The position numbers and the translations under genes were made by a program. Of a stretch of 64,000 nucleotides of DNA, positions 28-34,655 are shown piece after piece. The notes beneath the pieces are model-generated. The model saw only the letters and a list, made by a program, of their open reading frames with translations, was not told the origin of the DNA and did no database searches. This stretch comes from Crambe crambe (lineage: Eukaryota; Porifera; Demospongiae; Poecilosclerida; Crambeidae), in the NCBI GenBank assembly GCA_963924555.1, contig OZ004582.1:6572001-6636000 (forward strand), read 5' to 3'. Each line of letters starts with the position of its first letter. Positions within the stretch are counted from its first letter, which is position 1.

Positions 28-836
28 TATTATTCATAGCTAGCATTAGCTGCTGATTAAGTGAAGAATGTGGTGGTATGTACTGACTAAACCTAGCCTC
101 GTACCCAGGCCCGCTTTTTTCGCGGGGCGGTGGAAAAGTGAAGGGCCTGGTATAAGTTGCATGCGTATGTGCTCCATCCCCCCATTTAGGGGGGATTCGC
201 TATACTTTCGGGCACGTCCGTTACACAAATCGTAATAAACATTACATCATCGTAATTTTGAGTCAGCAGCTAGCTCTAGACTGTTCTGTCTTTCTGCGCT
301 AGGTTCAACTCACCTCACTCCCAGAAGCGTTCTGTGCAAGCTGTTTATGAAAGAAGTTATTTGTTTGTGTCGCTACCAACTGGTTAGACGAGAAGAGTCG
401 CTGCTATCATCTTACCTTTTGTTTTTATCATAAGCTTGGCTTGAGAGGGATAGTGCTGTTCTTGTTGTGTCTTAGTTTATTTTCACTGATGTGGATAAGG
501 TCTGGAGCCAGATCTAGCCAGCTAGCTGCACTGATTGAATGCGCACGTGCTACATATGTTTTTATGATTACATCATTCATCATGGATGAAATTTTACGTA
601 TTATTTCGTGTCTAATTAAGCGCATGCGCATGCAACTTATACCAGGCCCTTCGCTTTTCCACCACCCCGCGAAAAAGGCAAGCCTGGGTACGAGGCTATG
701 ACTAAACCCAACGTGTCTAACCCTAAACCCTCTCTTTATAAGGAAGTCCCTTGTTACGCTTGCTATTCCCATTGAGTTTATCGAAGTTGTATACAATTTT
801 TGGAAAGCTTGCATAAGTGGGGTTCTTGCTAAGCTC
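28..836 (+). pseudogene. Sm-RNA unit 1, split by a MITE
   Basis: First copy of the array family. The upstream element (28-73) and the start of the TAAACCC box are separated from the rest by a 605 bp inverted-repeat element (94-698). After it the box resumes (703), with TATA at 737 (34 bp), an Sm site AATTTTTGG at 795-803 and a weak 3' hairpin (AGCTT near 807, AAGCT near 831). Removing the insertion would restore a normal promoter layout, so this unit was complete before the insertion. It is probably inactive now. Confidence 0.5.
94..698. mobile_element. MITE with ~75 bp terminal inverted repeats, copy 1
   Basis: It begins TAGCCTCGTACCCAGGC and ends with the inverse GCCTGGGTACGAGGCTA. The arms continue inward through GGGCCTGGTATAAGTTGCAT and its inverse. 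It is flanked by a perfect 10 bp direct repeat, TGACTAAACC (84-93 and 699-708), taken as the target-site duplication. There is no transposase ORF, so it is non-autonomous. The 10 bp duplication does not clearly fit hAT (8) or MULE (9), so the superfamily is left open. Confidence 0.8.
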
Positions 837-1183
837 TAAATGTTTTAATGCACCAGCAGAAAATAATTTTCTGGCTATAAGTGCTGATCACATGACTTGG
901 ATCCAATCAAAATCCATACATAGCAAACCAAAAATAAAGGGACATCCCCTCCTCTTAGTTAGGCTATACCTCTTTGATTTTATGTTTCTCAGATTCCCTG
1001 GAAGAAAAATGACACCTGGCAGGCAGGAGGAAAAAAAAAAACAGTCTTGCTTGCTGATATAAACATGGTAGATAATTTCTCCTTCAAGCTTGTGGTCATA
1101 CTTGAGCAACAATAACTTTCCCAGGTACACTGCTGGCTTTGATGATCTCATGATCACACTTGTACCTATAATTATGAAATATG

Positions 1184-1238
1184 AATTTTTGGAAAGCCCA
1201 CGATAAAATAGGGGTTGGTGTGACCTCCGTGAGCTTGA
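1184..1238 (+). pseudogene. Sm-RNA unit 2, 3' half only
   Basis: Sm site AATTTTTGG at 1184-1192 is followed by the family hairpin (GGGGTT/GACCTC arms, then GTGAGCTTGA). No TAAACCC box or TATA precedes it at the expected distance, so this is an orphan tail. Confidence 0.45.
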
Positions 1239-1411
1239 TTCAATAGTATTTTCATGACTTGTGGATTGTGGAGGGCTGATCACCCTTTAAACAAATTTGG
1301 ACAATCCTCTATCCAACTAACCTCTTAACATGGAAAGTTATTACTAGAAGTCAGTACGTACCACTACTGCATGGCTACATTAGCTATAGAAATATTCCTT
1401 TTGTACTTCTG

Positions 1412-1523
1412 ATTATTCATAAGGGTATATTAAGTGGGAATTGTCACTCAGACTCAGGAATTCAGATTTTCAATTTTTGGAAAGCCCACACAAATGAGGC
1501 TCTGGTATCCTCAGTGAACTTGA
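1412..1523 (+). pseudogene. Sm-RNA unit 3, promoter deleted
   Basis: Sm site at 1472-1480 and a tail (GAGG/CCTC arms) nearly identical to unit 19 at 11,742. Upstream only a remnant TTATTCATAA is left; the TAAACCC-TATA block seen in unit 19 is missing. It is a deletion derivative of the same lineage. Confidence 0.45.
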
Positions 1524-1854
1524 TGTGTTGATAGAACCACAAAATTTACTAACTGATTGGAACATGGACTCTCCAATTAGAGAAGGCCAGACTGTGTGTT
1601 AGTTCAGGATTCTGAAGCAATGCAAGGCTAAATAATGAGGCCTTCAATTTGATTTCAATTCAGCTTATCCACTTAACTTATGTATTTAGAATGGTTTCAG
1701 GCATGTGGTTATGTTTTAACCACATAAAAGAAAAATGGGCCCCATCAGAGTGGTGTTGCACCTCTCTAACACCCTTTGGAGAGAACCCTGGTAATGGGTG
1801 TATAGTTGTGGTATAATGGCTGTGCCAGTCATAAATAGAATGCATTCTAGTCTT

Positions 1855-2075
1855 TCTCTTACTCAAATTCACGACCAAAGTCATGTGTGATTTTAATGAT
1901 CCAGTCCTTACCACCAAAACTGATTTCTTTGCATCCATACAATACCTTATGGGAATAATTTTTCTTATTGGGGGCAGAAATGAAGTATTCAAAATAGTTT
2001 ATGCTTCTTTTTGAGTTTGGAATGATTTCCTCAAATTTATTATCAGGTCCTTCTTAAATTAAAATGCAGCCCTGG
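1855..2075 (+). repeat. Spacer block B, copy 1
   Basis: This block recurs between Sm-RNA units. It runs TCTTACTCAAATTCACGA, then CCAGTCCTTACCACCAAAA, GGCAGAAATGAAGTATTC and AAAATGCAGCCCTG. Other copies lie near 5205, 8905, 10,750, 19,195 and 25,795. Short ORFs across it are not conserved and are treated as noise. Confidence 0.6.
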
Positions 2076-2160
2076 ATGTGATGGTTGGATAATTTTTGGT
2101 ATAATAATATCATGCTACTGAACATTGTTTGTACTCATGATAGATGGAGGTTATTAAAGT

Positions 2161-2389
2161 TGTACTATTATTCATAGTTGCTGATTAAGTGAAGAATGTG
2201 ATCATGTAGTAGTGGTATGTACTGACTAAACCCAACGTGTCTAACCCTAAACCCTCTCTTTATAAGAAAGTCCAGAAGGTGTATATTTTAGACTCAACTC
2301 CACCATAGTAGTTGGCAATAGTTCTTAATATCTTAATAATTTTTGGAAAGCCCACGCAAGTGAGATTCTCATAATCTCTGTGAGCTTGA
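2161..2389 (+). ncRNA. Sm-RNA unit 4 (complete)
   Basis: Reference-quality unit. Upstream element 2161-2200; TAAACCC box at 2227; TATA at 2261 (34 bp later); unit-specific segment about 2275-2337, the longest in the array (77 bp from TATA to the Sm site); Sm site AATTTTTGG 2338-2346; 3' hairpin with distal stem GAGATT/AATCTC over a CTCAT loop and basal stem AGCCCAC/GTGAGCT. If transcription starts 25-30 bp after TATA, the RNA would be about 95-100 nt. Function is unknown; the Sm-class assignment rests on the site plus the hairpin. Confidence 0.6.
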
Positions 2390-2544
2390 AAGCTTCTTTT
2401 TTTTTTCAAACCTGAAATGCAAATATAAATTAAGTTGTACAGTGCAGAAAAACATCAAAGAATGTTAAAATAAGACCAGGAAATAAATTTGTAATTGGGA
2501 GGTAAGGAGGGTCCCCACCATTCAAAGTTCCATTGCCCCCTTTT

Positions 2545-2815
2545 TAGGGACATCCCTTCTATCAAAGGTTTCAGTGCCTCCTTTCATGTCTCAGCTTTAT
2601 GGGCAACATGGTGATCTTTTTTTCTTCTCTTTTCTCTGTGGTACCATTATTAACTAGCATTGCACATGTGTGTCAAATCTTTCTTATTGTCTTAATGAAA
2701 GGGACATCCCCTCCCCCTCCCCTTTGTCAGTAGCCCCATATATCTATGCCTTCTTCTCTCAGAGTCTCCACATCAAAAGAATCAATGAAACAATGAGTGT
2801 GTTTATTAATTAATA
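2545..2815 (+). repeat. Spacer block C ('GGGACATCCC' block), copy 1
   Basis: Spacer with GGGACATCCCTTCTATC, CTCAGCTTTATGGGCAACAT and ATGAAAGGGACATCCCCTC. It is near-identical to 7735-7950 and related to 15,840-16,020, 18,290-18,540, 19,610-19,860 and 22,620-22,740. It travels with the downstream Sm-RNA unit in segmental duplications. Confidence 0.6.
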
Positions 2816-2821
2816 TCTGAC

Positions 2822-3009
2822 AGTTATTCATAGTTTGCTGGTTAAGTGAAGAATGTGATTATAAACCCAACGTGTGTAAGCGCTAAACTCTCTCTTTATA
2901 AGGAGATCCAGAGGATGGCTCTGGCTACCCACATGGAGTGTTGTTTTTAAATAGTCTACAATTTTTGGAAAGCCCACGGTAAAGAGGTTTTGTGACCTGT
3001 GTGCTTGAT
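2822..3009 (+). ncRNA. Sm-RNA unit 5 (complete)
   Basis: TAAACCC box 2862, TATA 2897 (35 bp), Sm site 2960-2968, distal stem AGGT/ACCT. The basal stem ends GTGTGCTT rather than GTGAGCTT. The upstream element sits about 25 bp nearer the box than in unit 4, yet the box-TATA distance is kept. Closest relatives are units 16 and 27. Confidence 0.58.
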
Positions 3010-3252
3010 CTGTTTGAAATTTGAAATTCAATTAGTTGTCCAGTTTGTGTTCACTAGATTTGATAGCTTGAATCTTGACATTTATAGAATCATTCTATAA
3101 TAAGCTGGTTTTGAGAAGTTGATATTTGGTTAATAAATGAGCAGTTGATCAAGGTATCAAATAGTATGGACTAATGTGCATGCTCCAATATGATTGCTGC
3201 ATGTTGGCAAGCTGTTGATAGCTTCTGGGATTTCCCACCCCAAGAAAAAATT

Positions 3253-3277
3253 CCCCCCCCCCCCCCCCCCCCCCCCC
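3253..3277. repeat. Poly-C tract
   Basis: Run of about 25 C following a GGGATTTCCCACCCC motif; the same place in the paralogous segment (8438-8473) is also C-rich. Confidence 0.9.
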
Positions 3278-3314
3278 AAAGAATTAAGGATGCTTATTCG
3301 GTTGTGTTAGCTAA

Positions 3315-3470
3315 TAGTATTCATAGGTTAACAAAGAATGCAAGTATTAATACTGACTAAACCCAGCCTGCCAAGTGCTATACAACTGATTCGGGAAAAT
3401 TTTTTTTGGAAAGCCCACGTTAATGTGGAAAGCCCACAGTAAAGGGGTCTTATGACCTCTGTGAGCTTGA
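3315..3470 (+). pseudogene. Sm-RNA unit 6, box-TATA block deleted
   Basis: Upstream element and ACTGACTAAACCCAG are present, but the stretch carrying TATA in the near-identical unit 17 is missing. The Sm-like site is expanded to AATTTTTTTTGG (3398-3409). The tail has a duplicated GGAAAGCCCAC before the GGGGTC/GACCTC hairpin. Its unit-specific segment matches that of unit 17. Confidence 0.5.
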
Positions 3471-3479
3471 TTCAATTAG

Positions 3480-3850
3480 TGTTATCTTCATCACGGAGCA
3501 AAGAGTTGATCAAACTCTGAGTTGGTTTTTATGGTCAGTGCACGGCTAGAATTGGTGTCAAAAATTGATCGAGGCATTGCTGCCTAGTGGTTGAGTGCAG
3601 TATTGTTCTCGAGTGTCTGTAAGTAAAGTATTTCTGAATTTGAATGCTGAATGAAAATGCTTTCCTCAGGGGGTGGGGGAATTTTACCTGCCCCCTCCTG
3701 CCTAAACTAAAATGCAGCTCTACATATGATGTTGGGATACAATATGCTATTCAACATAAGAGATTTAGTGCTCATTATAAGGTTATGATAGTTGTACCAT
3801 TATTCATAGCTGCTGATTAAGTGAAGAATGTGACAATGTAGTAGTGGACT
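3480..3850 (+). repeat. Segmental duplication, copy 1 (partner 9725-10,102)
   Basis: The spacer and promoter up to unit 7 are nearly identical, base for base, to the DNA before unit 18. The similarity continues to the end of the TATA block, is lost in the unit-specific segment, and returns at the Sm site and hairpin. Confidence 0.8.
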
Positions 3851-3990
3851 AAACCCAATGTGTCTTGCCCTAAACCCTCTCTTTATAAAAAAGTCCAGAG
3901 CCATTTTTTACTTTAATTGCTTTTCAATTTCCGTCTGATAATTTTTGGAAAGCCCATGCTAAGGAGATTCTAGTAATCTCCGTGAGCTTG
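3797..3990 (+). ncRNA. Sm-RNA unit 7 (complete)
   Basis: TAAACCC box 3850, TATA 3884 (34 bp), unit-specific segment about 3898-3939, Sm site 3940-3948, distal stem GAGATT/AATCTC with CTAGT loop. A T-run follows the hairpin. Promoter and flanks are almost the same as unit 18, but the segment before the Sm site has no obvious similarity to it. Confidence 0.6.
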
Positions 3991-4029
3991 AAATCTTTGA
4001 TCTTTTTTTTTTTTTCAAACCTAATTATG

Positions 4030-4560
4030 ATCACTCCCCATGAGAGAGCTACTCTATCCCCCATGAGAGTGAAGTAAGCCCCACCTATCTGTGTGTGTGT
4101 GTGCGAAAGATCTATGATGTAATAACACAGCTCATCCAAGCTAGAGTTACCAGACCCGTTTCCCCCCCGAGAAAAAGGAGGTAAAGGGTTGGCACCACCA
4201 GACTAGCCCCCTTCTTCTCTCCACACCAAGATTAATTGGTGCGAGTTGGCTGAGAAAACTTTTATGTATCGTACGTACGCACGTTTTTCCAGTTACGTCA
4301 GCTGCAATACGATGATGTCATCGGCTAAAGAATACTAATTTCAGGGGATTTTAGACCCTCAAGTGCTGAGTACAAAAGTGACAATAACTTCAACATATGT
4401 AGCTAAAACATGTAGTGAAGTCAGTCAGTTGTCATTCAAAGGATCCATTAATAGCACGTGCCTTGGTTGGTGAACCTTTATTGTGGTGATCATTATTGGG
4501 GGGAGGGGGGATCTGCCACTGAATTTAAAAGTTCGCCCCACAATTACAATGCCCTAGTCA
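4030..4560 (+). repeat. Spacer block D, copy 1 (partner 14,205-14,770)
   Basis: Contains CTCCCCATGAGAG, ATCTATGATGTAATAACA, CAATACGATGATGTCATC and GACAATAACTTCAACATATG. It recurs in the same order before unit 22. No coding potential is evident. Confidence 0.6.
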
Positions 4561-4582
4561 AAGATGTTAATTGAGATGTGTT

Positions 4583-4794: not shown

Positions 4795-4902
4795 TTCATT
4801 ATCTTCATCACAGAGCAGAGAGTTGATCAAACTCTGAGTTGGTTTTTGTAAGACGTTTGTCAGTGTATGGCTGTAGTTTGAGAGAATTGGTGTCGAAAAA
4901 TC

Positions 4903-5415: not shown

Positions 5416-5504
5416 CAGAGAATATTTTCTGCCCCCTCCTTCTTAAATTACAATGCAGCCCTGCATGTGATGGTTTAAATAATAGATGGAGATAATTAAA
5501 GTGA

Positions 5505-5712
5505 CTATTATTCATAGTTGCTGATTAAGTGAAGAATGTGGTCATGTAGTAGTGGTATGTACTGACTAAACCCAACGTGTCTAACCCTAAACCCTCTCTT
5601 TATAAGAAAGTCCGGAGGGTGTCCATTTTATACTCAAGTGATTTCAAGAACACACTTAATAATTTTTGGAAAGCCCACGCTAGTGAGATTCTGGTAATCT
5701 CTGTGAGCTTGA
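5505..5712 (+). ncRNA. Sm-RNA unit 10 (complete)
   Basis: TAAACCC box 5567, TATA 5601 (34 bp), Sm site 5661-5669, distal stem GAGATT/AATCTC with CTGGT loop. The segment 5636-5656 differs from units 12 and 14 although everything around it is nearly the same. Confidence 0.62.
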
Positions 5713-5975
5713 AAGCTTTGAATATGAATTAAATCGTAATTGATGTTTGAATCCTCTTGTGATGTTTTGAGTACACATACACATCATAGGAATAGCTTCT
5801 GATTGGGAGGGTATCCATATGAAGTATTCAAAATAGTTTATGGCTCTTTTTGTGTTGGAAGAATGCTTTCCTCATCAGATTTATTATGGGGGGAGCAAAT
5901 ATTCCCCGCCCCCTCATCCCTAAATTAAAATGCGGCCCTGCATGAGATGTTTCTCATGAGGTAACTAAAGTTGTA

Positions 5976-6162
5976 ACATTATTCATAGTTGTTGACTAAA
6001 AGTGAAGAATGTGGTCATGTGGTAGTGGTATGTACTGACTAAAGCCAACGTGTCTAACTCTCTATAGAAAGTCCACAGGCACAAGAATTATTATTGGGAT
6101 ACCAGTAATAATAATATAATAATTTTTTGAAAGTCTATGCAAATGAATTTCTATGAGCTTGA
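5976..6162 (+). pseudogene. Sm-RNA unit 11 (decayed)
   Basis: The upstream element is good, but the box reads TAAAGCC and about 10 bp are missing before CTCTATAG, which breaks the 34 bp spacing. The Sm-like site is AATTTTTTGA (6121-6130) and the distal hairpin is gone. Units 13 and 15 share these defects. Confidence 0.5.
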
Positions 6163-6260
6163 AGTTGTTTTCAAACCTATATATCTGCCCCCTCCTTCTT
6201 AAATTACAATGCAGCCCTGCATGTGATGGTTTAAATAATAGATGGAGATAATTAAAGTGA

Positions 6261-6471
6261 CTATTATTCATAGTTGCTGATTAAGTGAAGAATGTGGCCA
6301 TGTAGTAGTGGTATGTACTGACTAAACCCAACGTGTCTAACCCTAAACCCTCTCTTTATAAGAAAGTCCGGAGGGTGTCCATTTTATACTCGAAATAATT
6401 TGAAGTAGTCATGCATAATAATTTTTGGAAAGCCCACGCTAGTGAGATTCTGGTAATCTCTGTGAGCTTGA
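6261..6471 (+). ncRNA. Sm-RNA unit 12 (complete)
   Basis: TAAACCC box 6323, TATA 6357 (34 bp), Sm site 6420-6428, distal stem GAGATT/AATCTC. The unit-specific segment (6391-6417) is identical to unit 14 and unlike unit 10. Confidence 0.62.
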
Positions 6472-6732
6472 AAGCTTTGAATATGAATTAAATCGTAATT
6501 GATGTTTGAATCCTTGTGATGTTTTGAGTACACAGACACATCATAGGAATAGCTTCTGATTGGGAGGGTATCCATATGAAGTATTCAAAATAGTTTATGG
6601 CTCTTTTTGTGTTGGAAGAATGCTTTCCTCATCAGATTTATTATGGGGGGAGCAAATATTCCCCGCCCCCTCATCCCTAAATTAAAATGCGGCCCTGCAT
6701 GAGATGTTTCTCATGAGGTAACTAAAGTTGTA

Positions 6733-6919
6733 ACATTATTCATAGTTGTTGACTAAAAGTGAAGAATGTGGTCATGTGGTAGTGGTATGTACTGACTAAA
6801 GCCAACGTGTCTAACTCTCTATAGAAAGTCCACAGGCACAAGAATTATTATTGGGATACCAGTAATAATAATATAATAATTTTTTGAAAGTCTATGCAAA
6901 TGAATTTCTATGAGCTTGA
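6733..6919 (+). pseudogene. Sm-RNA unit 13 (decayed)
   Basis: Second copy of the decayed unit type: TAAAGCC box, shortened box-TATA distance, AATTTTTTGA at 6878-6887, no distal stem. Essentially identical to unit 11. Confidence 0.5.
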
Positions 6920-7017
6920 AGTTGTTTTCAAACCTATATATCTGCCCCCTCCTTCTTAAATTACAATGCAGCCCTGCATGTGATGGTTTAAATAATAGAT
7001 GGAGATAATTAAAGTGA

Positions 7018-7228
7018 CTATTATTCATAGTTGCTGATTAAGTGAAGAATGTGGCCATGTAGTAGTGGTATGTACTGACTAAACCCAACGTGTCTAACCC
7101 TAAACCCTCTCTTTATAAGAAAGTCCGGAGGGTGTCCATTTTATACTCGAAATAATTTGAAGTAGTCATGCATAATAATTTTTGGAAAGCCCACGCTAGT
7201 GAGATTCTGGTAATCTCTGTGAGCTTGA
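7018..7228 (+). ncRNA. Sm-RNA unit 14 (complete)
   Basis: TAAACCC box 7080, TATA 7114 (34 bp), Sm site 7177-7185, distal stem GAGATT/AATCTC. The predicted RNA is identical to that of unit 12; they are recent tandem copies. Confidence 0.62.
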
Positions 7229-7488
7229 AAGCTTTGAATATGAATTAAATCGTAATTGATGTTTGAATCCTTGTGATGTTTTGAGTACACAGACACATTA
7301 TAGGAATAGCTTCTGATTGGGAGGGTGTCCATATGAAGTATTCAAAATAGTTCATGGTTCTTTTTGTGTTGGAAGAATGCTTTCCTCATCAGATTTATTA
7401 TGGGGGGAGCAAATATTCCCCGCCCCCTCATCCCTAAATTAAAATGCGGCCCTGCATGAGATGTTTCTCATGAGGTAACTAAAATTGT

Positions 7489-7673
7489 AACATTATTCAT
7501 AGTTGTTGATTAAAAGTGAAGAATGTGGTCATGTGGTAGTGGTATGTACTGACTAAAGCCAACGTGTCTAACTCTCTATAGAAAGTCCACAGGCACAAGA
7601 ATTATTATTGGGATACCAGTAATAATAACATAATTTTTTGAAAGCCTATGCAAATGAATTTCTATGAGCTTGA
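7489..7673 (+). pseudogene. Sm-RNA unit 15 (decayed)
   Basis: Third copy of the decayed type, with TAAAGCC, AATTTTTTGA at 7632-7641 and a degenerate tail. It differs from units 11 and 13 by a few bases. Confidence 0.5.
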
Positions 7674-7734
7674 AGTTGTTTTCAAACCTGAAATGCTAAA
7701 AGTAAAATTAATTCACTTGAAGTGAATAGGGACA

Positions 7735-7960
7735 TCAAAGTTTCAGTGCCCCACCTTTCATGTCTCAGCTTTATGGGCAACATGGTGATCTTTTTTTCTT
7801 CTCTTTTCTCTGTAGTACCATTATTAACTAGCATTGCAAATGTGTGTCAAATCTTTCTTATTGTCTTAATGAAAGGGACATCCCCTTCCCCTCCCCTTTG
7901 TCAGTAGCCCCATATATCTATGCCTTCTTCTCTCGGAGTCTCCACATTATTAATTAAAAA
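7735..7960 (+). repeat. Spacer block C, copy 2
   Basis: Nearly identical to 2545-2815 and, like it, followed by a unit of the unit-5 type. Confidence 0.6.
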
Positions 7961-7965
7961 CCGAC

Positions 7966-8154
7966 AGTTATTCATAGTTTGCTGGTTAAGTTAAGAATGT
8001 GATTATAAACCCAACGTGTGTAAATGCTAAACTTGCTCTTATAAGGAGATCCAGAGGAGAGCTCTGGCTACCACATGCATGGAGTGTTGTTTTTGAACAC
8101 TAAAAAATTTTTGGAAAGCCCACGGTAAAGAGGTTTTGTGACCTGTGTGCTTGA
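7966..8154 (+). ncRNA. Sm-RNA unit 16 (complete)
   Basis: TAAACCC box 8006, TATA 8040 (34 bp), Sm site 8106-8114, distal stem AGGT/ACCT. Paralogue of unit 5; they agree up to GGAGTGTTGTTTTT and then diverge over the last ~15 bp before the Sm site. Confidence 0.57.
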
Positions 8155-8437
8155 TCTGTTTGAAATTTGAAATTCAATTAGTTGTCAATCTTGACATTTA
8201 AAACGCCAGTAGAATCACTCTATAAGCTGGTTTTGAGAAGTTGAAATTTGGTTAATAAATGAGCAGTTTATCAAGGTATCAAATGAATTCAAATAGTATA
8301 GACTAATGTGCATACTCCAATATGATTGCTGTATGTTGGCAAGCTGTTGATAGCTTCTATACATTTCATCATTAACACAATTCAGGGTTTCATAGAGGGG
8401 GGTGGGAAACCTGGGATTTCCCACCCCAAGAAAAAAT

Positions 8438-8473
8438 CCCCCCTCCCCCCCCCCCCTCCCCCCCCCCCCCCCC
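8438..8473. repeat. C-rich tract
   Basis: Almost pure C with a few T, in the same context as the tract at 3253. A second pure C run lies at 8641-8658. Confidence 0.85.
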
Positions 8474-8775
8474 AAAAAGAGATTATAATCATACACACAG
8501 CAAGAAAGCCCAAAAAATGATAAATAAATAACCAAAACAGAGAATTAGCCAACAATAAGTCCTCCAAATTTCTTTCACGCCCCTCCCACACCCTCCCCCT
8601 TGCCGTGGCCTAACAGCCACATGATCGGCACAAATCCACTCCCCCCCCCCCCCCCCCCAAAAAAAAAAAGAGAAGGAAAAATCCCTGATTGAATTGTCAG
8701 TTAACCTTTAGCCAAATTGCTCAGATTGCCCAACAATTGGGATACTCGTTTAACTATAAACAACCAGCACATTAA

Positions 8776-8850
8776 AACAACAACAACAACAACAACAATG
8801 ACAACAACAATGACAACAACAATGACAACAACAACAACAACAACAAACTT
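8776..8850. repeat. (CAA)n microsatellite
   Basis: CAA repeats interrupted by TGA triplets; a similar tract occurs at 19,085-19,135 in a paralogous context. Confidence 0.9.
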
Positions 8851-8904
8851 CGTCTGTGAGCTAGTTGGAAAGATAGCTCCCCTTCTCTGACTGCTTTCTC
8901 CTTT

Positions 8905-9175
8905 CATTTGGAATCATCTCTTACTCAAATTCACGATCAAAGTCATGTTGATCCAGTCCTTACCACCAAAAGTGAATTCTTTGCAATACCTGGAATTATA
9001 GGAATAACTTTTCCGATGGGGGGGGGGGGGGGGGGGGGGGGGTGGGGTCCATGTGGCAGAAATGATGTATTCAAAATAGTTTTGTGTTGGGAATGCATAT
9101 TCCTCAGAATTATTGCTTTCTTCGGATTTATTTATTGGCTCTGAAAATTTGAATGCAGTCCTGCATGTGATGTTG
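8905..9175 (+). repeat. Spacer block B, copy 3, with poly-G 9018-9042
   Basis: Same order of motifs as 1855-2075. A 25 bp G run sits before TCCATGTGGCAGAAATGA, where other copies have short G runs. Confidence 0.6.
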
Positions 9176-9427
9176 GGATTATTTAGTGAGCCAACACTAG
9201 CAGGTCGACTCTGGAGAGCACTTTTATATATATTATATCTCTGAGTACATTCTTCCGGTGTCATTTAGTATTACGCATGCACAAATCTTTACGACAAAAT
9301 AACATTAATGGTTTTTCCTGCAACAATCACTTGGTGACATTATATCACATTGCACTTGTACTTATACTTGAGCATCAGCAAACAGATCACAGAATTATCC
9401 TATGCAGAAAACATGCACAAAATTCTG

Positions 9428-9449
9428 CCCCCCCCCCCCCCCCCCCCCC
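9428..9449. repeat. Poly-C tract
   Basis: About 22 C in a row. Confidence 0.9.
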
Positions 9450-9515
9450 TTGGATCTTGCTTTGCTTGCCCCACAATTATGTGATGAAGGAATGAGAATG
9501 CTTATTCAGTTGTGT

Positions 9516-9722
9516 TAATAGTATTCATAGCTTACTGGTTAACAAAGAATGCAAGTATTAATACTGACTAAACCCAACACGTGCAGTGCTAAACTCTCTC
9601 TTTATAAGTCTGCCTGCCAAGTGCTATATAACTGATTCGGGAAATTACTATAAATTTTTGGAAAGCCCACGTTAATGTGGAAAGCCCACAGTAAAGGGGT
9701 CTTATGACCTCTGTGAGCTTGA
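9516..9722 (+). ncRNA. Sm-RNA unit 17 (complete)
   Basis: TAAACCC box 9569, TATA 9603 (34 bp), Sm site 9653-9661; this is the shortest TATA-to-Sm distance (50 bp). The tail has the GGAAAGCCCAC duplication and GGGGTC/GACCTC stem. It is the intact counterpart of unit 6. Confidence 0.57.
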
Positions 9723-9724
9723 TT

Positions 9725-10102
9725 CAATTAGTGTTATCTTCATCACAGAGCAGAGAGTTAATCAAACTCTGAGTTGGTTTTTATGGTCAGTGCACGGCTA
9801 GAATTGGTGTCAAAAATTGATCGAGGCATTGCTGCCTAGTGGTTGAGTGCAGTATTGTTCTCGAGTGTCTGTAAGTAAAGTATTTCTGAATTTGAATGCT
9901 GAATGAAAATGCTTTCCTCAGGGGGTGGGGGGAATTTACCTGCCCCCTCCTGCCTAAACTAAAATGCAGCTCTACATATGATGTTGGGATACAATATGCT
10001 ACTGAACATAAGAGATTTAGTGCTCATTATAAGGTTATGATAGTTGTAACATTATTCATAGCTGCTGAATAAGTGAAGAATGTGACAATGTAGTAGTGGA
10101 CT
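9725..10102 (+). repeat. Segmental duplication, copy 2 (partner 3480-3850)
   Basis: Near-identical to the DNA before unit 7, including a G-rich CCTCAGGGGGTGGGGG and AAAATGCAGCTCTACATATG. Confidence 0.8.
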
Positions 10103-10260
10103 AAACCCAATGTGTCTTGCCCTAAACCCTCTCTTTATAAGAAAAGTCTACTTTATACATGTAATCCAATTCCTCTAGAAGTGCTTTTTTCTATATTCTT
10201 TAATTATAATTTTTGGAAAGCCCACGCTAATGAGATTGTAGTAATCTCCGTGAGCTTGAA
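10049..10260 (+). ncRNA. Sm-RNA unit 18 (complete)
   Basis: TAAACCC box 10,102, TATA 10,136 (34 bp), unit-specific segment about 10,148-10,207, Sm site 10,208-10,216, distal stem GAGATT/AATCTC with GTAGT loop. The segment is about 16 bp longer than in unit 7 and unrelated to it. Confidence 0.6.
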
Positions 10261-10749
10261 AGCTTTTGATCTTTTTTTTTTTCAAACCTAAAATCTCAAA
10301 TTTTGATATTTGAAGTATCATGTTTTAGAAAGTCGACACTGACTTGAGAGGTACACTTGAGTTGTTTTCTTTGGTGGTTATTATTTTCTATTGCCTTATT
10401 AGGAGGAGAAATCTCCTCAGACAGTTGAAGGTCACAATACTGAATTTAGTTGTTCAGACATAATACAGCCTGAAATACCCCTTCAACAGTTGGCATGCTC
10501 ATTGCACTACAAGCAACCAGCATAGCTTTGTCTGCAAGCTAAAATTCCTAGCAGTAGCGATCGAAAAAAGACCCTGCAGCTCTCAGTTTTGAGCCGTGCT
10601 GTGGCTTCACCTTCACTATTTCCACATTTTCCTCTGAATTCCCAAAGTTGCCCCACACCCACATTTTTAAACCAAGGTCAGAGTTTATAACAACAGTTGA
10701 GCCAGATTTGCTAGAGAAAAAAACCACTCACTGCCTTCTCCTTGCATTT

Positions 10750-10945
10750 GGAATCATCTCTTGCTCAAATTCTTGAAGTCGTGAACAGTCTTTACCACCA
10801 AATTGAATTCTTTGCATCCATACAATGCCTAGAAACTGGGTATTAGGAATATTACATTTCTGATTGGGGGATCCATGTGGCAGAAATGAAGTATTCAAAT
10901 AGTTTATGCTTCTTTTAAATGCTTTCCTTATCAGATTTATTGTGG
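10750..10945 (+). repeat. Spacer block B, copy 4
   Basis: ATCTCTTGCTCAAATTCTTG, TTACCACCAAATTGAATTC and GGCAGAAATGAAGTATTC in block order. DNA just left of it (10,290-10,740) shows nothing recognisable. Confidence 0.5.
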
Positions 10946-11103
10946 GGAGGGGTCCACGAGCTAACTATTCCTACTTCACTCCCTTTATATCTCATCTTGG
11001 CGTGTCATGGGAGTGAAGAAGGAATAGTCAGCTCGTAACTTAGTAATATTGGTGATGGGTAAGGGGTTACTTGACTGAAGTTCACTCTCTTGTTGCTGAA
11101 CTT
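10945..11103. repeat. Foldback element, partner of 32,461-32,575 (inverted)
   Basis: GAGCTAACTATTCCTACTTC and GGGAGTGAAGAAGGAATAGT form a hairpin. The right part (GGTGATGGGTAAGGGGTTAC) is the reverse complement of 32,490-32,512. Confidence 0.6.
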
Positions 11104-11199
11104 TTTTGAACCACACACAGACATCCCATCCCTACTTTTCTTTACTTGTAGGGCATTATAATTGCCTACCCCTCATCTCTTAGGGGATATCCCTTTTCA

Positions 11200-11526
11200 T
11201 TAAGGTAGTGGAGGCGTGTTTGCTCATGAATAATTCATGAGTTAATGGTTAACGAGGCGGGTGTTGAGTTTCATACTGACTAGCATTCCTACTCTACAGC
11301 TGAGAAAATTGATGTGAAAAAATCAATCAAGGCATGGCTGCTTAGTGGTTAAGTTTCTCTGCAACGGTATTGTTCTCGAGTGTCTGGTTTGCCCTCAGTT
11401 GTAGAGTAGGAAGTGCTAGTCAGTATGAAACTGTAGTTTTCAACTGTAGCATCTCGTAGCCGGTGCAACTACCCGCCTCATTAACTTACGAATTATTCAT
11501 GAGTGAACACGCCCCCACCACCTTAA
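11200..11526. mobile_element. TTAA-flanked MITE
   Basis: Ends are TTAAGGTAGTGGAGGCGTG and CACGCCCCCACCACCTTAA, giving imperfect inverted repeats with TTAA at both edges. The arms continue through GAATAATTCATGAG, GAGGCGGGT and CATACTGACTAGCA. The TTAA target suggests a piggyBac-type non-autonomous element; no transposase is present. Confidence 0.7.
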
Positions 11527-11588
11527 CTCAGTCCAAATATTTAGTACTTATGCTTATGATTATTCATAAGGGTATAATTAAAGTTGTA

Positions 11589-11793
11589 CTATTATTCATA
11601 GTTGCTGATTAAGTGAAGAATGTGATCATGTAGTAGTGGTATGTACTGACTAAACCCAACGTGTCTAACTCTAAACCCTCTCTTTATAAGAAAGTCAGAT
11701 ACAAAATCTCAGTGAGAATGATTGTAATGCATAATTATTTCAATTTTTGGAAAGCCCACACAAATGAGGCTCTGGTATCCTCAGTGAGCTTGA
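11589..11793 (+). ncRNA. Sm-RNA unit 19 (complete)
   Basis: TAAACCC box 11,651, TATA 11,685 (34 bp), Sm site 11,742-11,750, distal stem GAGG/CCTC with a larger loop. Intact counterpart of unit 3; lies directly after the TTAA MITE. Confidence 0.6.
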
Positions 11794-11859
11794 TGTGCCA
11801 CAAAATTTACTAACTGTTCCTGCAACATGGACTCTTCAAATGGAGAAGACTGGAGTATC

Positions 11860-12055
11860 AGTGCTTATGAATAAGAAATTAATATTGACTGGACATGATG
11901 TATAGTTTGTCCTAATATTTAACTGGACATTATATCAGTGTGCATTTTGACAAATATTTTTGTCCCGACAAACAAATTATGACCAGACATATGCCCGAAA
12001 ATGTCAGGTATCAGGCTGTTATCATAAGCTCTGGACTATGTGTTATTCCAGGTAT
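11860..12055. repeat. Dispersed repeat E ('GACTGGACAT' element), copy 1
   Basis: Shares ATATTGACTGGACATGATGT, CAGTGTGCATTTTGA and GAAAATGTCAGG with 26,450-26,640 and 37,970-38,095. Ends GTGCTTATGA and TTATCATAAGCTCTG are imperfect inverse copies, so it is probably a MITE. Confidence 0.5.
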
Positions 12056-15038: not shown

Positions 15039-15043
15039 TTTAA

Positions 15044-15296
15044 TTTGGACTAAACCCAACGTGTCTAACCCTAAACCTTCTCTTTATAAGAAAGTCTGGA
15101 GGGTGTCCATTTACTTCAAAGTTCCTATTTGATATTCCTAATTTTTAATTTGGACTAAACCCAACGTGTCTAACCCTAAACCTTCTCTTTATAAGAAAGT
15201 CTGGAGGGTGTCCATTTACTTCAAAGTTCCTATTTGATATTCCTAATTTTTGGAAAGCCCACGCTAATAAGATTCTAGTAATCTCTGTGAGCTTGA
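15044..15296 (+). ncRNA. Sm-RNA unit 23/24, tandemly duplicated head
   Basis: Fused directly to the tail of unit 22 with no upstream element. The box, TATA and unit-specific segment occur twice with a 105 bp period (boxes 15,051 and 15,156; TATA 15,085 and 15,190). The first copy ends AATTTTTAA and lacks a hairpin; the second has the Sm site 15,245-15,253 and a stem AAGATT/AATCTC. It may be inactive without the upstream element. Confidence 0.5.
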
Positions 15297-15488: not shown

Positions 15489-15650
15489 CCATTATTCATA
15501 GTTGCTGGTTATGTACTGACTAAACCCAATGTGATATTCTTGTGCCAGTGGACTTTCTTATAAAGAGAGGGTTTAGTGTAAGGATGTAATAATATCTGTT
15601 AATAATGGAAAGCCCACCTAATGAAATTCTGCTAATTTCTGTGAGCTTGA
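15489..15650 (+). pseudogene. Sm-RNA unit 25, internal inversion
   Basis: Upstream element, TAAACCC box and tail run on the + strand, but the TATA block between them (15,550-15,576) reads in reverse: GGACTTTCTTATAAAGAGAG is the inverse of the usual CTCTCTTTATAAGAAAGTCC. The Sm site is reduced to AATAATGG. The hairpin GAAATT/AATTTC is still paired. Confidence 0.6.
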
Positions 15651-27078: not shown

Positions 27079-27282
27079 CGTTATTCATAGCTGCTGATTA
27101 AATGAAGAATGTAATAATCATGTAGTGGTATGTACTGACTAAACCCAACGTGTCTAACCCTAAACCCTCTCTTTATAAGAACCCTCTACATTGATACAAT
27201 AATGGAATTTAGTATAATGGAATTTAGTATAAATTTTTGGAAAGCCCACAACAAAGAGGTTCAGTAACCTCTGTGAGCTTGA
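27079..27282 (+). ncRNA. Sm-RNA unit 34 (complete)
   Basis: TAAACCC box 27,140, TATA 27,174 (34 bp), Sm site 27,232-27,240, distal stem GAGGTT/AACCTC. The unit-specific segment contains a perfect tandem repeat of AATGGAATTTAGTAT immediately before the Sm site. Confidence 0.6.
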
Positions 27283-29869: not shown

Positions 29870-30236
29870 ATCTGTTGCAAGTCTCATTAAATCAACTGTA
29901 CAATAGATTGCAGTGATCGAACTGATCTTGCAACATACCAAAGCATAATATAGCCTCCATTCAAGCAGTGTTGACTTTGCTCACCAACATACTCTAATTA
30001 TTAGTGTTTTGTCCATGTGGGTGTGGTTTGAACTTTGAACTTGAAGGCATATGTACCAAGTCTCATTAAATCAACTGTACAATAGATTGCAGTGATCGAA
30101 CTGATCTTGCAACATACCAAAGCATAATATAGCCTCCATTCAAGCAGTGTTAACTTTGCTCACCAACATACTCTAATTATTAGTGTTTTGTCCATGTGGG
30201 TGTGGTTTGAACTTTGAACTTGAAGGCATACGTACA
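29870..30236 (+). repeat. Tandem duplication, 179 bp period, two copies
   Basis: GTCTCATTAAATCAACTGTA through CTTTGAACTTGAAGGCATA is repeated twice with very few differences. Confidence 0.9.
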
Positions 30237-30312
30237 ATGTACATACATTAATGTTGACTCTGGCATTATGACCTTCACAAAATCTGGCACTAGGATTACG
30301 ATAATTAAAATT

Positions 30313-30521: not shown

Positions 30522-30631
30522 AATGTGATAATCCTGAGATATTCCGAGACTTGGTGTTCTAATGAGGTGTATGTTAAAACCTCAGTGAGCTTGAAATGTG
30601 ATGATCCTAAGTTATTCCAAGACTTGATGTT
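30490..30631 (+). repeat. Tandem duplication of the unit-38 tail (71 bp period)
   Basis: The second copy keeps GAGGT...ACCTCAGTGAGCTTGA but lacks a box, TATA or Sm site. Confidence 0.7.
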
Positions 30632-31123
30632 TTGATCTCTCTCTGTACAGTGAAACATTGAAACTTAGTTGTTAAGAAACATTGGTCAGTGGCCAAGAGT
30701 ATCTGCATGTACCACACCTATGCTATTTTATTCGAAAAAAAAATAATCAAATTACTGCAGTGGAAACATTTTAAACACCACAGGGCCAAATGATCAAAAA
30801 GTATGCCGGATTGGTGTTGTGATCACACCCATTACACACACCTGTGAAATTCCATCCTCTTAGCTAGCCACCAATGACAGATACTGGTTTATGATAGGTA
30901 AAAGTACAGACTTGTTATAATGTCGATATGACTGATTATTTTGGAGGAAAACTGTGTGGATAACGATGGTAAAAGCACAATAAGTGAAAGGATCATGAAT
31001 ATGTACCCACTAAAATTGTGTTTGTGCAAATATGACAAGGTCAACCTAACTGAGAGTTGATCAGCTCACTCACTTGCTGAATGAAATAAAGTCATGTTAT
31101 AAAATGAGTGGTCAGCTGAGTTA

Positions 31124-31331
31124 ACCATTATTCATAGCTGCTAATTAAGTGAAGAATGTTGTGGTTTATACAGACTAAACCCAACGTGTCTTAGCCCCAA
31201 CCCTCTCTTTATAAGAGAGCTTAGGAGGACATTCCAATTTGACCATCGCACCTCCATATATATAGAAATTTTTTTTAATTTTTGGAAAGCCCACAACGAA
31301 GAGGTTAAGTCAATAACCTCTGTGCGCTTGA
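31124..31331 (+). ncRNA. Sm-RNA unit 39 (complete)
   Basis: TAAACCC box 31,176, TATA 31,210 (34 bp), Sm site 31,277-31,285 preceded by an extra T-run, distal stem GAGGTT/AACCTC. It differs from unit 36 in the unit-specific segment. Confidence 0.58.
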
Positions 31332-32137
31332 ACTAAATGTGAGCAGTCAACCATAACAAATGATTTGTAGAATTGTAGTTCAGGTAGCAACACCTTCCAA
31401 CACTTGTACTGCAATAATTGGTACAAAAAAGGTCACCTTCCAGCACTCGTGCATGTAACCTCAATGCTTTTGAGACCAGTAATGATAAGTGTCCTAGAGT
31501 CTCCCCCTGGCTGTACTTTCAAACAGGGCTGGTGCTTAAGTATATTCATGAGAATATAATCCATAGACCCAGCCCACTTTCTTTGAAGTTTTATATTCAA
31601 ACAGGGTGGCCTGCCCTGCATTTAGTATACTGGGGAAACAATGTCCTAGGTGTCCTGATTCAGGGGTTAAGCAATGAGGATTATAACTCTTTTGAAATGA
31701 TCTCAGACCATGGGCAGCCATATTATGATATGGCCTTTAAATAACATTCCTAAATGCAATGGGATGTATTGTGCCAATATGATGTCAGACCAATCAGACA
31801 TTTGACCTTTTGACCTGGCAAATGGATCCTCACTGCATTGGAACCTCTATATGTATAATTAATGTAGGACCATGTAATTAGTGTCCTGATTGTGAGCATA
31901 AAGAAGAGATCTTTATTAAGTGTACATATGTAAAGTCTGATCTATTAAATCCTAAGCGTTGAACTGAAATTTTGCACTCATAATGAAATAGATGGAGATG
32001 TATGATTAACCCTCAGTGCATGCACGAGAGGGTTATGGTACTCCACACACACACAGACAAACTGAGCGTTCTGCTGCTGCAGTTCAGAGAAGTCCGAACT
32101 CCGGAGTTGAACAGAAATTTTGCACTCATAATGAGTA

Positions 32138-32309
32138 ACCATTATTCATAGCTGCTAATTAAGTGAAGAATGTGGCCATGTACTGACTAAACCCAACGTG
32201 TCTAATCCTAAACCCTCTCTTTATAAGAAAGTTTAGGGGAACACTATTCATACATGTCTCCATGGACGTTTCTCCAGTATTAATTTTTGGAAAGCTCTGT
32301 GAGCTTGAT
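32138..32309 (+). ncRNA. Sm-RNA unit 40 (complete, minimal hairpin)
   Basis: TAAACCC box 32,188, TATA 32,222 (34 bp), Sm site 32,282-32,290, then AAGCTC-TGT-GAGCTT. The distal stem is absent, but the basal stem has become perfectly paired. Confidence 0.58.
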
Positions 32310-32460
32310 TGTGATGTCCAGTCAGAACAGCAAAACCATTCTCCCAGCAACTCCCAAGAAAATACCAGCATAGCTGAGTTGGTACAATAGAACTCAAGTA
32401 AAGGAGAAAAATATTTATTCTAAATGATAGAATAGAAAAGTAGGGATGGCTGTGTGTGGA

Positions 32461-32575
32461 GCAACAAGAGAGTGAACTTCAGTCAAGTAACCCCTTACCC
32501 ATCACCAACTATTCCTACTTCACTCCCATGACAGGCCAGAGAAGGGAGTGAAGTAGGAATAGTTAGCTGCTACAG
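32461..32575. repeat. Foldback element (inverted partner of 10,945-11,103)
   Basis: AACTATTCCTACTTCACTCC opposes GGAGTGAAGTAGGAATAGTT across a short loop, about 23 bp of near-perfect stem. Confidence 0.65.
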
Positions 32576-33450
32576 ACTTTGTATAACATGTGTTTATCAT
32601 GTGACATGGGTTTCTATCCGTAACTGCCACGAAATGCTACCAACATAGCTACATCTCTCCATTTTACATCACTCTGGCTACATCAATGAAAATGTGGTAA
32701 CCTGTGATAACATTGTCATACGATATCTATTGCAAGTCTCATTACTAAATCAACTACTGTAGATTTCTGGATGGTTGTCCATACGGAATGAGAAATTGGT
32801 AGTGGCTTAAAAGGACCTAAGAAACCTGATCCTTTCATGTCCTATACAATCCATGCAGTTGTGTAAACCATAGAACAAAATGTATCCACCTATTCCCCAA
32901 ACCTTCCTGACAACCAACCTGCAATGGACAGTATACAGTAGATAGCAGTGATCTTGAAACATAGCTTCCATTCAAGTATCCTATCTCCAAGTCCTTTGAA
33001 AGGAGGCTATGTAAATTTTGGTTAACCACTGGCTACAAACTCTGTTGCAAGTTTTACTAAATCAACTGTATCAAAGGAAATTGTTGTTTTCAACACTTGC
33101 ATATTGTTTTCTCTGTCCAGTGAAGCCTCCATATTATCTAAACCTTGGTTTGAAACCTACACAATTATTAAGATCAAAGCTCAGAACACTTTGGTCAGTT
33201 GGTTGTGTGCATGGATCAGTTAAATGTGATGATGTGCTGCCTTGATCCTTGGCATCCATTGCTAGCCTTCCATTTTGCTTTTTTGATGTTCTTGACTGGG
33301 GCAAGTTACTCGTTCTACCCGTTACCATACAATGAAACTGGTAAAGGGTCGACATACTTAATAATGCTATTGTTAATGGCTTTTAGTACTAACTACCTGG
33401 GCTATGTGGTTAGCTCTATCTTCTGATCTTTGAGTTGGTTCCTTGAGACT

Positions 33451-33494
33451 GCTGTTTGTTTGTTTGTTTGTTTGTTTGTTTATTTGTTTGTTTA
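33451..33494. repeat. (GTTT)n microsatellite
   Basis: About ten GTTT units; a (GT)n tract follows at 33,738-33,760. The stretch 32,600-34,470 has no recognisable gene; several ORFs of 60-75 codons have no family resemblance. Confidence 0.85.
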
Positions 33495-34472
33495 TTAATT
33501 CAATGCTGAATAACATTTGGCTAAGCCAACTAGCTTTGTAGCTAATGTGAATGCCGCCAGAAATACACAAATGCTATACAAATACTATACAGCATACAAT
33601 TTAAGAGTTAGCGGCAGGTTAGTTACGTAAATAATCACTCCTTCATGTTGACTCCTTCATGCTGCACCTGCATATTAAAAAAGTAATGCTCATAGTCAGC
33701 AGATCGAGTGAAGATTCAGAGCCTAGACATAAGGTAGTGTGTGTGTGTGTGTGTGTGTGTCTCACCAACTACCATTAGTGATGTTTTGTCCATGTGTGTG
33801 CGGTTTGAACTTTGAACTTGAAGACATACGTACAATGTACATACATTATGGTTGACTCTGGCACTATAAAACAATCAATATTAAATCCTTCACAATAACA
33901 GGCCCTACATAACCTTTTTTATCTAAATGAAATTTTGCACTAGGATTGCGATAATCACAGTTGTATTATATTTAATCTAGTCTAGTTATTTGCTTACTTT
34001 GAATGCTTGCTGCTCTGTAGAGTCGAACCTGTATTATCTGAAACACAGTTATTTAGCATTTCGTGTTTGATACAAAATTATTATTAAGATCAAGGCTCAA
34101 AAATCACATTGGGTCAGTTGGTTACAGGGCCCAGAAATAGAAGAGTTCCATAGAAAGGCTAAGCATACATTTAGTCCTGAGCTGTTGGAATAATAATGAT
34201 TCCACTTAACAGCATATTAGCATCTGATTCTTCAACTAAAATATAATGTAATGTAAGCTATGCTAAAGGTTAGGCCATAACCTTTTTATCGAGGAGATTT
34301 CGTATCATCGGTGTTCTCCTAAGCATACCTACTATGCCTCCAAGTACACCATCCCTTTGATGTGGTCAATAGAACGCTGATTAGTTAACCACAATTACCC
34401 TTTGATGTGTGAAATGTCCTATTCTTCACTAGTGTAGGGAGAACACTGTATCATGATCATTTATAAGGATAA

Positions 34473-34655
34473 TTATATTCATAGCTGCTAATTAAGTGAA
34501 AAATGTGGCCATGTAAACCCAATGTGTCTAAACCCTAAATCTGCCTTTATAAGACAGTTCAGGAAAGCACTATTTTATCCTCCATTATTATAAACGTTTT
34601 TTTTAATTTTTGGAAAGCCCACAATTAAGAGGCCAGGTAACCTCTGTGTGCTTGA
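34473..34655 (+). ncRNA. Sm-RNA unit 41 (complete, last of the array)
   Basis: TAAACCC box 34,514, TATA 34,548 (34 bp), Sm site 34,605-34,613, GAGG/CCTC stem with a large loop, ending GTGTGCTTGA. It lies about 290 bp before the first recognised DDB1 exon and in the same orientation. Confidence 0.57.

Follow-up and report, generated by a model that had tools for sequence, protein, structure and literature searches.

The head-to-tail run of small RNA units in the demosponge Crambe crambe is, at sequence level, best read as part of a gene family for Sm-class RNAs that is new, as the original prediction had it: the units carry an snRNA-type promoter and a covarying hairpin and have no Rfam match at gathering score. 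The window—the whole stretch of 64,000 nucleotides that was analysed—contains 38 such units, and the genome appears to hold some ninety or more snRNA-type genes, nearly each with its own 5′ arm. That these form a gene family with snRNA promoters is highly probable. The explanation favored here as a whole, in which Sm RNPs are guided by a variable arm, is given a probability of roughly one half.

Extent of the array and of the family

The window has 35 copies of the motif AATTTTTGG, all of them on the plus strand and between positions 795 and 34613, whereas 100 shuffled windows have 1.81 on average and at most 5; a chance origin of these sites is excluded. At 33 of them, all on the plus strand within 795–34,655, the motif continues into AATTTTTGGAAA; the two others (2091 and 22988), about the number expected by chance, are absent from the matches of a covariance model. 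This model was trained on 18 units and run over the window at E ≤ 0.1, where it finds the 38 plus-strand loci and a lone, weak minus-strand match (15684, E 0.043). Five of the 38—at 3422, 6121, 6878, 7632, and 15604—are without the exact core. The array and its constant orientation were thus correctly predicted; the predicted count of about 41 units is slightly high, a perfect Sm site is found in 33 of the 38 with an altered or truncated site in the others, and the start at position 28 was not borne out, the array extending upstream to C3:6,547,475. The features of the array are collected in Table 1. The array holds further repeats besides the Sm-RNA units.

Table 1. Coordinates in the window of the array and of selected units
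Feature	Position	Strand	Remark
Sm-RNA array, 38 units (exact AATTTTTGGAAA in 33)	795..34655	+	Motif count and covariance model
Sm-site starts, first part	795, 1184, 1472, 2338, 2960, 3940, 4725, 5661, 6420, 7177, 8106	+	
Sm-site starts, second part	9653, 10208, 11742, 13913, 14969, 15245, 17375, 18718, 20022, 21382, 22904	+	
Sm-site starts, third part	23769, 25283, 26357, 27232, 27808, 28713, 29525, 30470, 31277, 32282, 34605	+	
Upstream element GCTGATTAAGTGAAGAATGTG of exemplar unit 6420	6276..6296	+	Distal-element-like; putative role
PSE-like element AAACCCAACGTG of unit 6420	6324..6335	+	Same element ahead of U1, U2, and U6 in the genome
TATA-like box CTCTTTATAA of unit 6420	6352..6361	+	
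Predicted 5′ arm of unit 6420	6386..6419	+	34 nt, variable core; start predicted 62 nt past the initial A of AAACCC
Sm site AATTTTTGG of unit 6420	6420..6428	+	
3′ hairpin of unit 6420	6430..6469	+	
Predicted arm of unit 5661	5630..5660	+	Accelerated versus unit 6420
Arm of unit 7177	7143..7176	+	Identical to arm of unit 6420
Degenerate unit	6121..6162	+	AAAGCCAACG replaces AAACCCAACG; Sm AATTTTTTG
Variant unit with additional stem copy	3422..3470	+	Core is TTTTTTTTGG
Degenerate unit with truncated Sm site	15604..15650	+	
105-bp tandem duplication ahead of unit 15245	15039..15251	+	Promoter and arm

The family, which had been described as local, is not confined to the array. Exact AATTTTTGGAAAGC sites number 164 in the genome, against 0 for the reversed control, and AATTTTTGGAAAGCC..GGCTTG occurs 33 times (0 in the control), spread over 9 contigs. 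Among the 164 sites, 103 units were read in the fetched stretches and 118 distinct units overall. This spread had been missed by the original prediction, as had the fast 5′ part in some duplicates and the units without promoter or with a mutated core. A swapping of arms between paralogues was considered and is not general: the main exception beyond subfamilies and duplicates is a promoterless group (C3:7143106, 7150655, and 7153191, together with C1:715729) that has one common arm and unlike upstream DNA, and this arm is in part common to the promoter-bearing unit 26357 (C3:6598357).

Sm site, hairpin, and promoter

Sm sites are defined as being of the AAU4-6G(G/A) type, and the 33 exact window units feature the canonical Sm site AAUUUUUGG. 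The predicted hairpin lies directly 3′ of the Sm site and shows compensatory changes in the 18-unit alignment: 17 cells carry double-sided changes versus 4.9 in shuffles, and 88.3% of the hairpin cells are paired versus 18.7 to 47.0% with the partners slid—the slide control being biased toward the structure since this was defined from the same sequences. The RNA would consist of a 5′ arm of 21 to 51 nt, followed by AAUUUUUGGAAAGC and the terminal hairpin, with a predicted length of ∼80 nt. Behind the hairpin, a 3′ box or other common motif is not evident by eye and by 6-mer counts.

The examined U1, U2, and U6 genes of the same genome feature AACCCA approximately 60 to 66 nt ahead of the RNA start and a TATA-like box near −30. 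The element is found at all three U1 loci (60, 61, and 61 nt to the start, counted from ACCCA), at three U2 loci (62, 63, and 63 nt; a fourth, divergent locus, L008, was left uncounted), and at one U6 locus (66 nt). ACCCA within a 6-nt window has a P of ∼0.006 per gene, the window having been picked after the data were seen. The promoter-like block predicted in front of each complete unit contains this very element at matching spacing, namely at a compatible distance in 29 of 32 AATTTTTGGAAAG units of the window, with some units lacking it, and in 90 of the 118 distinct units genome-wide (units with identical 60-nt upstream DNA merged). By their sequence, the units look like genuine snRNA genes, in which the PSE-like element AAACCCAACGTG and the TATA-like box would set the transcription start ∼62 nt past the element.

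The many copies, some of them degenerate, and the other repeats in the array would also suit a mobile element with an snRNA-like cassette or snRNA pseudogenes that arose by retroposition. This origin is very improbable: the upstream promoter is retained, unlike in retroposed copies, and the hairpins covary. Any BLAST match at all was found between 93 of the 1225 pairs of 50 units—a set that included array units and overlapping loci—and, among the 40 pairs listed, many matches lie outside the RNA and common element ends were not seen.

Divergence of the arm in recent duplicates

In some recent copies, though not in all pairs, the arm probably evolves faster than its flanks. The median identity of 37 close pairs is 0.96 in the promoter, 0.91 in the hairpin, and 0.54 in the arm (units with identical 60-nt upstream DNA were merged, which leaves the identical pairs 6578420/6579177 and 7150655/7153191 outside the 37), whereas arms of 1288 unrelated pairs have an identity of 0.48. 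Arms of close pairs resemble each other more than those of unrelated pairs do (p 9e-6; 9 of the 37 exceed the 95th percentile), so that the arms are partly inherited. Unit 7177 is a young 757-bp tandem duplicate of unit 6420 and differs from it in 6 of 969 columns outside the arm.

Two pairs were tested apart, as a G-run and an upstream stretch of no more than 202 nt kept them from passing the upstream filter. Units 5661 and 6420 differ in 10 of 24 columns of the arm core versus 9 of 591 outside (p 7.5e-11), and, with each indel run counted as a single event, by 9 events in the 31-nt arm versus 4 in 559 nt of flank (p 5.6e-10). The pair 7151257/7153798 features an accelerated arm by columns (p 2e-14; counts summed by hand, the 9-nt Sm duplication excluded) and by events (6 in 51 versus 7 in 1434; p 1.7e-6), and a promoterless unit ∼600 bp further in the same duplication carries 0 events in 50 nt. 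Eight further recent pairs were examined, with C8:8450454/8450481 dropped as one locus compared with itself. Four are accelerated by columns (9e-13, 3e-8, 1e-4, and 0.03) and two by events (1.7e-4 and 8.8e-3), the single-event counting of indels having weakened two pairs; significant arm acceleration is missing in four of the eight by columns and in six by events, including one pair identical over the whole stretch and one without promoter. The degenerate unit 6121, which has resembling copies at 6878 and 7632, shows no arm acceleration when compared with 7632 (2/21 versus 10/242, p 0.25). Promoter-bearing and promoterless pairs, with units of identical 200-nt upstream DNA merged, do not differ significantly (21 versus 3, p 0.125; rank test, p 0.54), and, to judge by L061, one of the three pairs scored as promoterless (L055/L061) probably has its promoter at a greater distance upstream. 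The average profile shows divergence beginning as early as ∼55 nt ahead of the Sm site, between the TATA box and the start.

Proposed guide function and known Sm-class RNAs

In the favored explanation, a ring of Sm proteins would assemble on the Sm site, the RNA would carry a trimethylguanosine cap, and the arm would base-pair with a target RNA, each gene thereby encoding an RNP with its own address and a mode of action like that of U7 or the engineered U7-SmOPT antisense RNA. The role of the arm as antisense guide is put forward tentatively. From the rewriting of the arm in some recent duplicates—with promoter, hairpin, and neighboring DNA kept—we infer diversifying selection, most simply explained if the arms were guides in conflict with targets that themselves change, for instance the RNAs of transposons or viruses; that the targets are parasitic RNAs is doubtful and speculative. 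A large, fast-diversifying animal repertoire of Sm-class guide RNPs might amount to an RNA-based and possibly defensive recognition system, combining a constant promoter and Sm/hairpin handle with a hypervariable antisense arm that evolves as the binding sites of immune receptors do, a rather unlikely extension. If the explanation were true, ninety-plus snRNA-type genes (164 core sites) with their own arms, fast evolving in some duplicates, would put the snRNP machinery to a new use and be a natural parallel to the U7-SmOPT antisense RNAs used in therapy, and the targets could reveal against what the animal defends itself or what it regulates.

A genome-wide search with two arms (22 nt, ≤3 mismatches) returned their own loci and weak matches and no credible targets, with 2 and 1 same-strand matches at three mismatches versus 4 and 0 for reversed controls. 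Pairing of arms to U1, U2, U6, neighboring genes, or the array and window is in no clear excess, the means being at most ∼0.4 nt above shuffles, and the openness of the arms does not exceed that of shuffled ones (MFE z −0.09; unpaired 0.553 versus 0.558). A joined query of 18 arms gave 5 self-matches only, in a search too insensitive to count. The lack of a target for the two arms and the ordinary openness of the arms fit with Sm-class RNAs that are real but do not use their arm in a sequence-specific way: only the hairpin and the Sm ring would matter—as an assembly factor, a decoy, or in an SmY-like role—and the stretch from TATA box to Sm site would be an unconstrained mutation hotspot, shaped by slippage or by break repair near the start. 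Local tandem duplications in some arms (a 15-mer before unit 27232; a doubled Sm site in C3:7151257), the onset of average divergence upstream of the RNA start, and the two of eight further pairs left significant by events point the same way. This explanation is possible but not probable, as relaxed constraint alone cannot outpace flanking DNA in recent duplicates, and a hotspot should hit promoterless copies too, few of which were seen and none accelerated.

The units are poorly explained as spliced leaders, as U7 proper, as members of Rfam families, or as a transposon. As predicted, known U snRNAs are not matched: Rfam covariance models give 0 matches at gathering score over the whole window and nothing relevant at E ≤ 10 in window positions 5500 to 12000. 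Known Rfam families were thus rejected; the weak matches to miRNA families lie at 10952–11040 on both strands.

The layout was correctly called closest to U7, with its short 5′ arm, Sm site, single 3′ hairpin, and snRNA promoter; the Sm site is canonical and not of the U7 type, and RF00066 has 0 matches in the genome at E ≤ 1 among the best 65 candidates scored. An expanded U7 family processing histone pre-mRNAs would account for this layout and for the lack of any other U7 by RF00066, and the classical stem-loop ends both H4 loci among the matches listed. The arm of C1:498010 ends in a U7-like manner (AACTCTTTCAG before the Sm site, resembling human U7) and is able to pair with the stretch downstream of either H4 locus. 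It ranks third of 90, however, its score is reached in 4 of 300 shufflings of that arm and also by whole shuffled sets, and a single histone element cannot be matched by arms this numerous and varied; with H4 downstream pairing not above shuffled sets and RF00066 empty, U7 identity was rejected and such a family is very improbable. The native, histone-targeting U7 features the Sm site AAUUUGUCUAG as quoted in PMC11232981, which the sponge units lack, and the SmOPT site AAUUUUUGGAG quoted there is nearly the AAUUUUUGGAAAG of the sponge units, which are natural, stem from many genes, and differ in their arms.

Diversified spliced-leader RNAs, with the arm as a leader exon trans-spliced onto mRNAs, would agree with the Sm site, size, and promoter. 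Such RNAs of nematodes, Hydra, ctenophores, and glass sponges are likewise of the Sm class, with several variants in Hydra according to PMC7986045, and a trans-spliced leader is mentioned for a glass sponge in PMC10282587. PMC7986045 also places the expected GT donor 20 to 60 nt before the Sm site. AGGT[AG] occurs in 9 of 90 arms versus 4.2 ± 2.2 in shuffles, but it is as frequent in the reverse complements (8/90), 81 arms are without it, and neither a donor at a common position nor a shared exon was seen. Moreover, the arms are gene-specific, whereas leaders are common to many mRNAs. Spliced-leader identity was rejected for want of a shared AGGT[AG]-type donor among the 90 arms—looser donors may occur—and is very improbable.

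To our knowledge, animal Sm-class RNAs are few in kind and conserved, and no description of such a family was found in the open-access literature among the matches listed. The SmY RNAs of nematodes are multi-copy Sm-class RNAs outside the spliceosome proper and share their class with the sponge units; they have a conserved structure of their own, whereas the sponge window is without Rfam match. HSUR1 and HSUR2 of Herpesvirus saimiri are Sm-class RNAs whose action on miRNAs and mRNAs, as described in PMC13158664 and PMC6763288, relies in part on base-pairing; they are a handful of viral RNAs, in contrast to a host family with hypervariable arms.

Sm site, hairpin, and promoter element of the units

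The units are candidate Sm-class RNA genes, named by the start of their Sm site, and consist of a promoter block, a variable 5′ part (the arm, between the predicted RNA start and the Sm site), the Sm site, and a 3′ hairpin. AATTTTTGG occurs at 35 sites within the first 35 kb of the window, all on the plus strand, and 33 of these extend to AATTTTTGGAAA. Downstream of most AATTTTTGGAAA sites lies a hairpin with the pattern AAGCCCAC–loop–GUGAGCUU, from which unit 795 and a few others depart. A covariance model built from 18 units matches 38 plus-strand loci in the window; the original prediction of approximately 41 plus-strand units thus holds as to strand, the number being lower. The 3′ hairpin that it placed after the Sm site is borne out by compensatory changes (17 cells compared with 4.9 in shuffles) and by slid-partner controls.

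Rfam searches yielded three U1 loci, four U2 loci, and one U6 locus; the fourth U2 locus (L008) is divergent and was left out, and the other seven (L001–L007) were used. All seven carry AACCCA upstream, with ACCCA lying 60, 61, and 61 nt (U1), 62, 63, and 63 nt (U2), and 66 nt (U6) ahead of where the Rfam match begins, as well as an A/T-rich TATA-like box near −30. One U1 gene features AAACCCAACGTG, identical letter for letter to array units. The promoter-like block noticed originally contains this element of the genome's own U1, U2, and U6, which lies at a compatible distance in 29 of the 32 AATTTTTGGAAAG units of the window and in 90 of the 118 distinct units read genome-wide. One element (AACCCA, at approximately −60) is found upstream of U1, U2, U6, and array units alike; U6 and the other snRNAs usually rely on different polymerases. 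With the predicted RNA start set 62 nt from AAACCC, it falls 21 to 51 nt before the Sm site (median 34; 79 distinct arms), and the predicted RNA is approximately 80 nt long (median 79.5; n = 90). As judged by sequence, the units combine an snRNA promoter element, an Sm site, a covarying hairpin, and a variable arm.

Distribution and relation to known Sm-class RNAs

In the genome searched (143 Mb, 119 contigs), where the window spans C3:6572001–6636000, AATTTTTGGAAAGC has 164 matches compared with 0 for the reversed pattern, and positions were obtained for at least 100 of the 164. The genes form an array at C3:6.547–6.607 Mb (contig coordinates), taking in the window units, and a second array at C3:7.137–7.168 Mb, mostly on the opposite strand; others are dispersed. 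AATTTTTGGAAAGCC..GGCTTG, mostly a short-hairpin subtype, has 33 matches on nine contigs (0 in the control), one of them a window unit; among the matches listed, most carry the promoter element and unrelated arms. Flanks are largely unrelated, with any BLAST hit in 93 of 1225 pairs (50 units, some array units and overlapping loci included). A subfamily at C8:8448.5–8453 kb (fetched as L028 and L054) has longer, C-rich hairpins, and in one of its genes the Sm site is present twice in tandem, at a spacing of 27 nt.

The layout of the units is that of U7, as originally proposed, and, for units carrying AAUUUUUGGA, also that of engineered U7-SmOPT antisense RNAs, the Sm site of which is AAUUUUUGGAG according to PMC11232981. 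The Sm site and RF00066 speak against U7 identity of the units; a search of the genome with RF00066 finds no U7 at E ≤ 1 among the best 65 candidates scored. The dispersed unit C1:498010 (L020, L040) has an arm ending in AACTCTTTCAG immediately before the Sm site—an end we take to be U7-like by comparison with human U7—and is possibly a U7 with a canonical Sm site. Two H4 loci were found, L073 (C12:6538816) and L074 (C21:4528927), both with the histone stem-loop; pairing of the C1:498010 arm with stretches at both is not above that of shuffled sets. The AGGT[AG] donor test speaks against spliced-leader identity. Rfam over the window returns no family at gathering score, in keeping with the initial view that no unit matches U1, U2, U4, U5, U7, U11, or U12. 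Sm-class RNAs acting on other RNAs are known in Herpesvirus saimiri, according to PMC13158664 and PMC6763288. Searches of open-access literature gave no description of a family such as the present one, which is weak evidence of absence. At the sequence level, the units are Sm-class snRNAs in the broad sense, distinct by gene number and hypervariable arms.

Divergence of the arm

In some recent copies, the arm is a fast-evolving segment. Over an alignment of approximately 600 bp, units 5661 and 6420 differ in 10 of the 24 columns of the arm core compared with 9 of 591 outside (p = 7.5e-11); counted by events, with an indel run as one, 9 fall in 31 nt of arm and 4 in 559 nt (p = 5.6e-10). Units C3:7151257 and C3:7153798 lie within a duplication of at least approximately 1.5 kb and differ in 13 of 50 arm columns compared with 11 of approximately 1475 elsewhere (p = 2e-14), or by 6 events in 51 nt of arm compared with 7 in 1434 nt (p = 1.7e-6); no event falls within the corresponding 50 nt of a promoterless unit (lacking an AACCCA-type element) located approximately 600 bp away in this duplication. 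Among eight further recent pairs, with at least 90% identity in the non-promoter flank, acceleration is seen by columns in four (p = 9e-13, 3e-8, 1e-4, and 0.03) and by events in only two (p = 1.7e-4 and 8.8e-3); the remaining pairs show none, one being identical over the whole stretch and one promoterless. Median identity in 37 close pairs is 0.96 for the promoter, 0.91 for the hairpin, and 0.54 for the arm, compared with 0.48 for arms of unrelated units; close-pair arms are still closer to each other than unrelated ones (p = 9e-6). In several subfamilies, as judged by eye, the arm ends are kept and the middle 12 to 24 nt differs.

Arm exchange between paralogues is not general. The exception is the promoterless group C1:715729, C3:7143106, 7150655, and 7153191, with a near-identical arm despite differing upstream DNA; the arm of the promoter-bearing window unit 26357 is similar. 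Short tandem duplications build the arms at window 27199–27232, C3:7147283, and C3:7151257—one of the three also doubling the Sm site itself—and hint at how arms change.

The snRNA-type promoter would drive transcription of the unit, the RNA would be capped and assembled with an Sm ring, and the arm would base-pair with target RNAs. Since rapid change is confined to the arm, changing targets are suggested; that these are, for example, transposon or viral RNAs is speculation. An unconstrained spacer with a mutation hotspot stays a serious rival, because genome-wide searches with two arms yielded neither a credible source nor a credible antisense target, arm pairing to U1, U2, U6, and local DNA shows no clear excess, arms fold as shuffled arms do, and promoter-bearing and promoterless pairs, in a small comparison (21 versus 3), do not differ significantly (p = 0.125). 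Local tandem duplications in some arms also favor such a hotspot.

Neighboring sequence in the window

Close to the array lie two paralogous large open frames featuring a right-handed beta helix (Pfam) and, by eye, several membrane spans; 261 proteins are similar at E ≤ 0.001, none of the best 120 of the 261 being named.

Open frames and repeats in the window
Feature	Window position	Strand	Remark
Large open frame, first paralogue	50539–54483	minus	right-handed beta helix (Pfam)
Large open frame, second paralogue	59002–62738	minus	right-handed beta helix (Pfam); split into two frames
Open frame, 654 aa	39715–41679	minus	no Pfam match
Near-perfect tandem duplication, 179 bp	29878–30235		just upstream of unit 30470
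Probably a MITE-like inverted repeat	10952–11040	both	weak plant-miRNA-family matches, on both strands
GTGGTCTCTTAAGAGAG-type palindromic repeats	43261–44338		in tandem arrays
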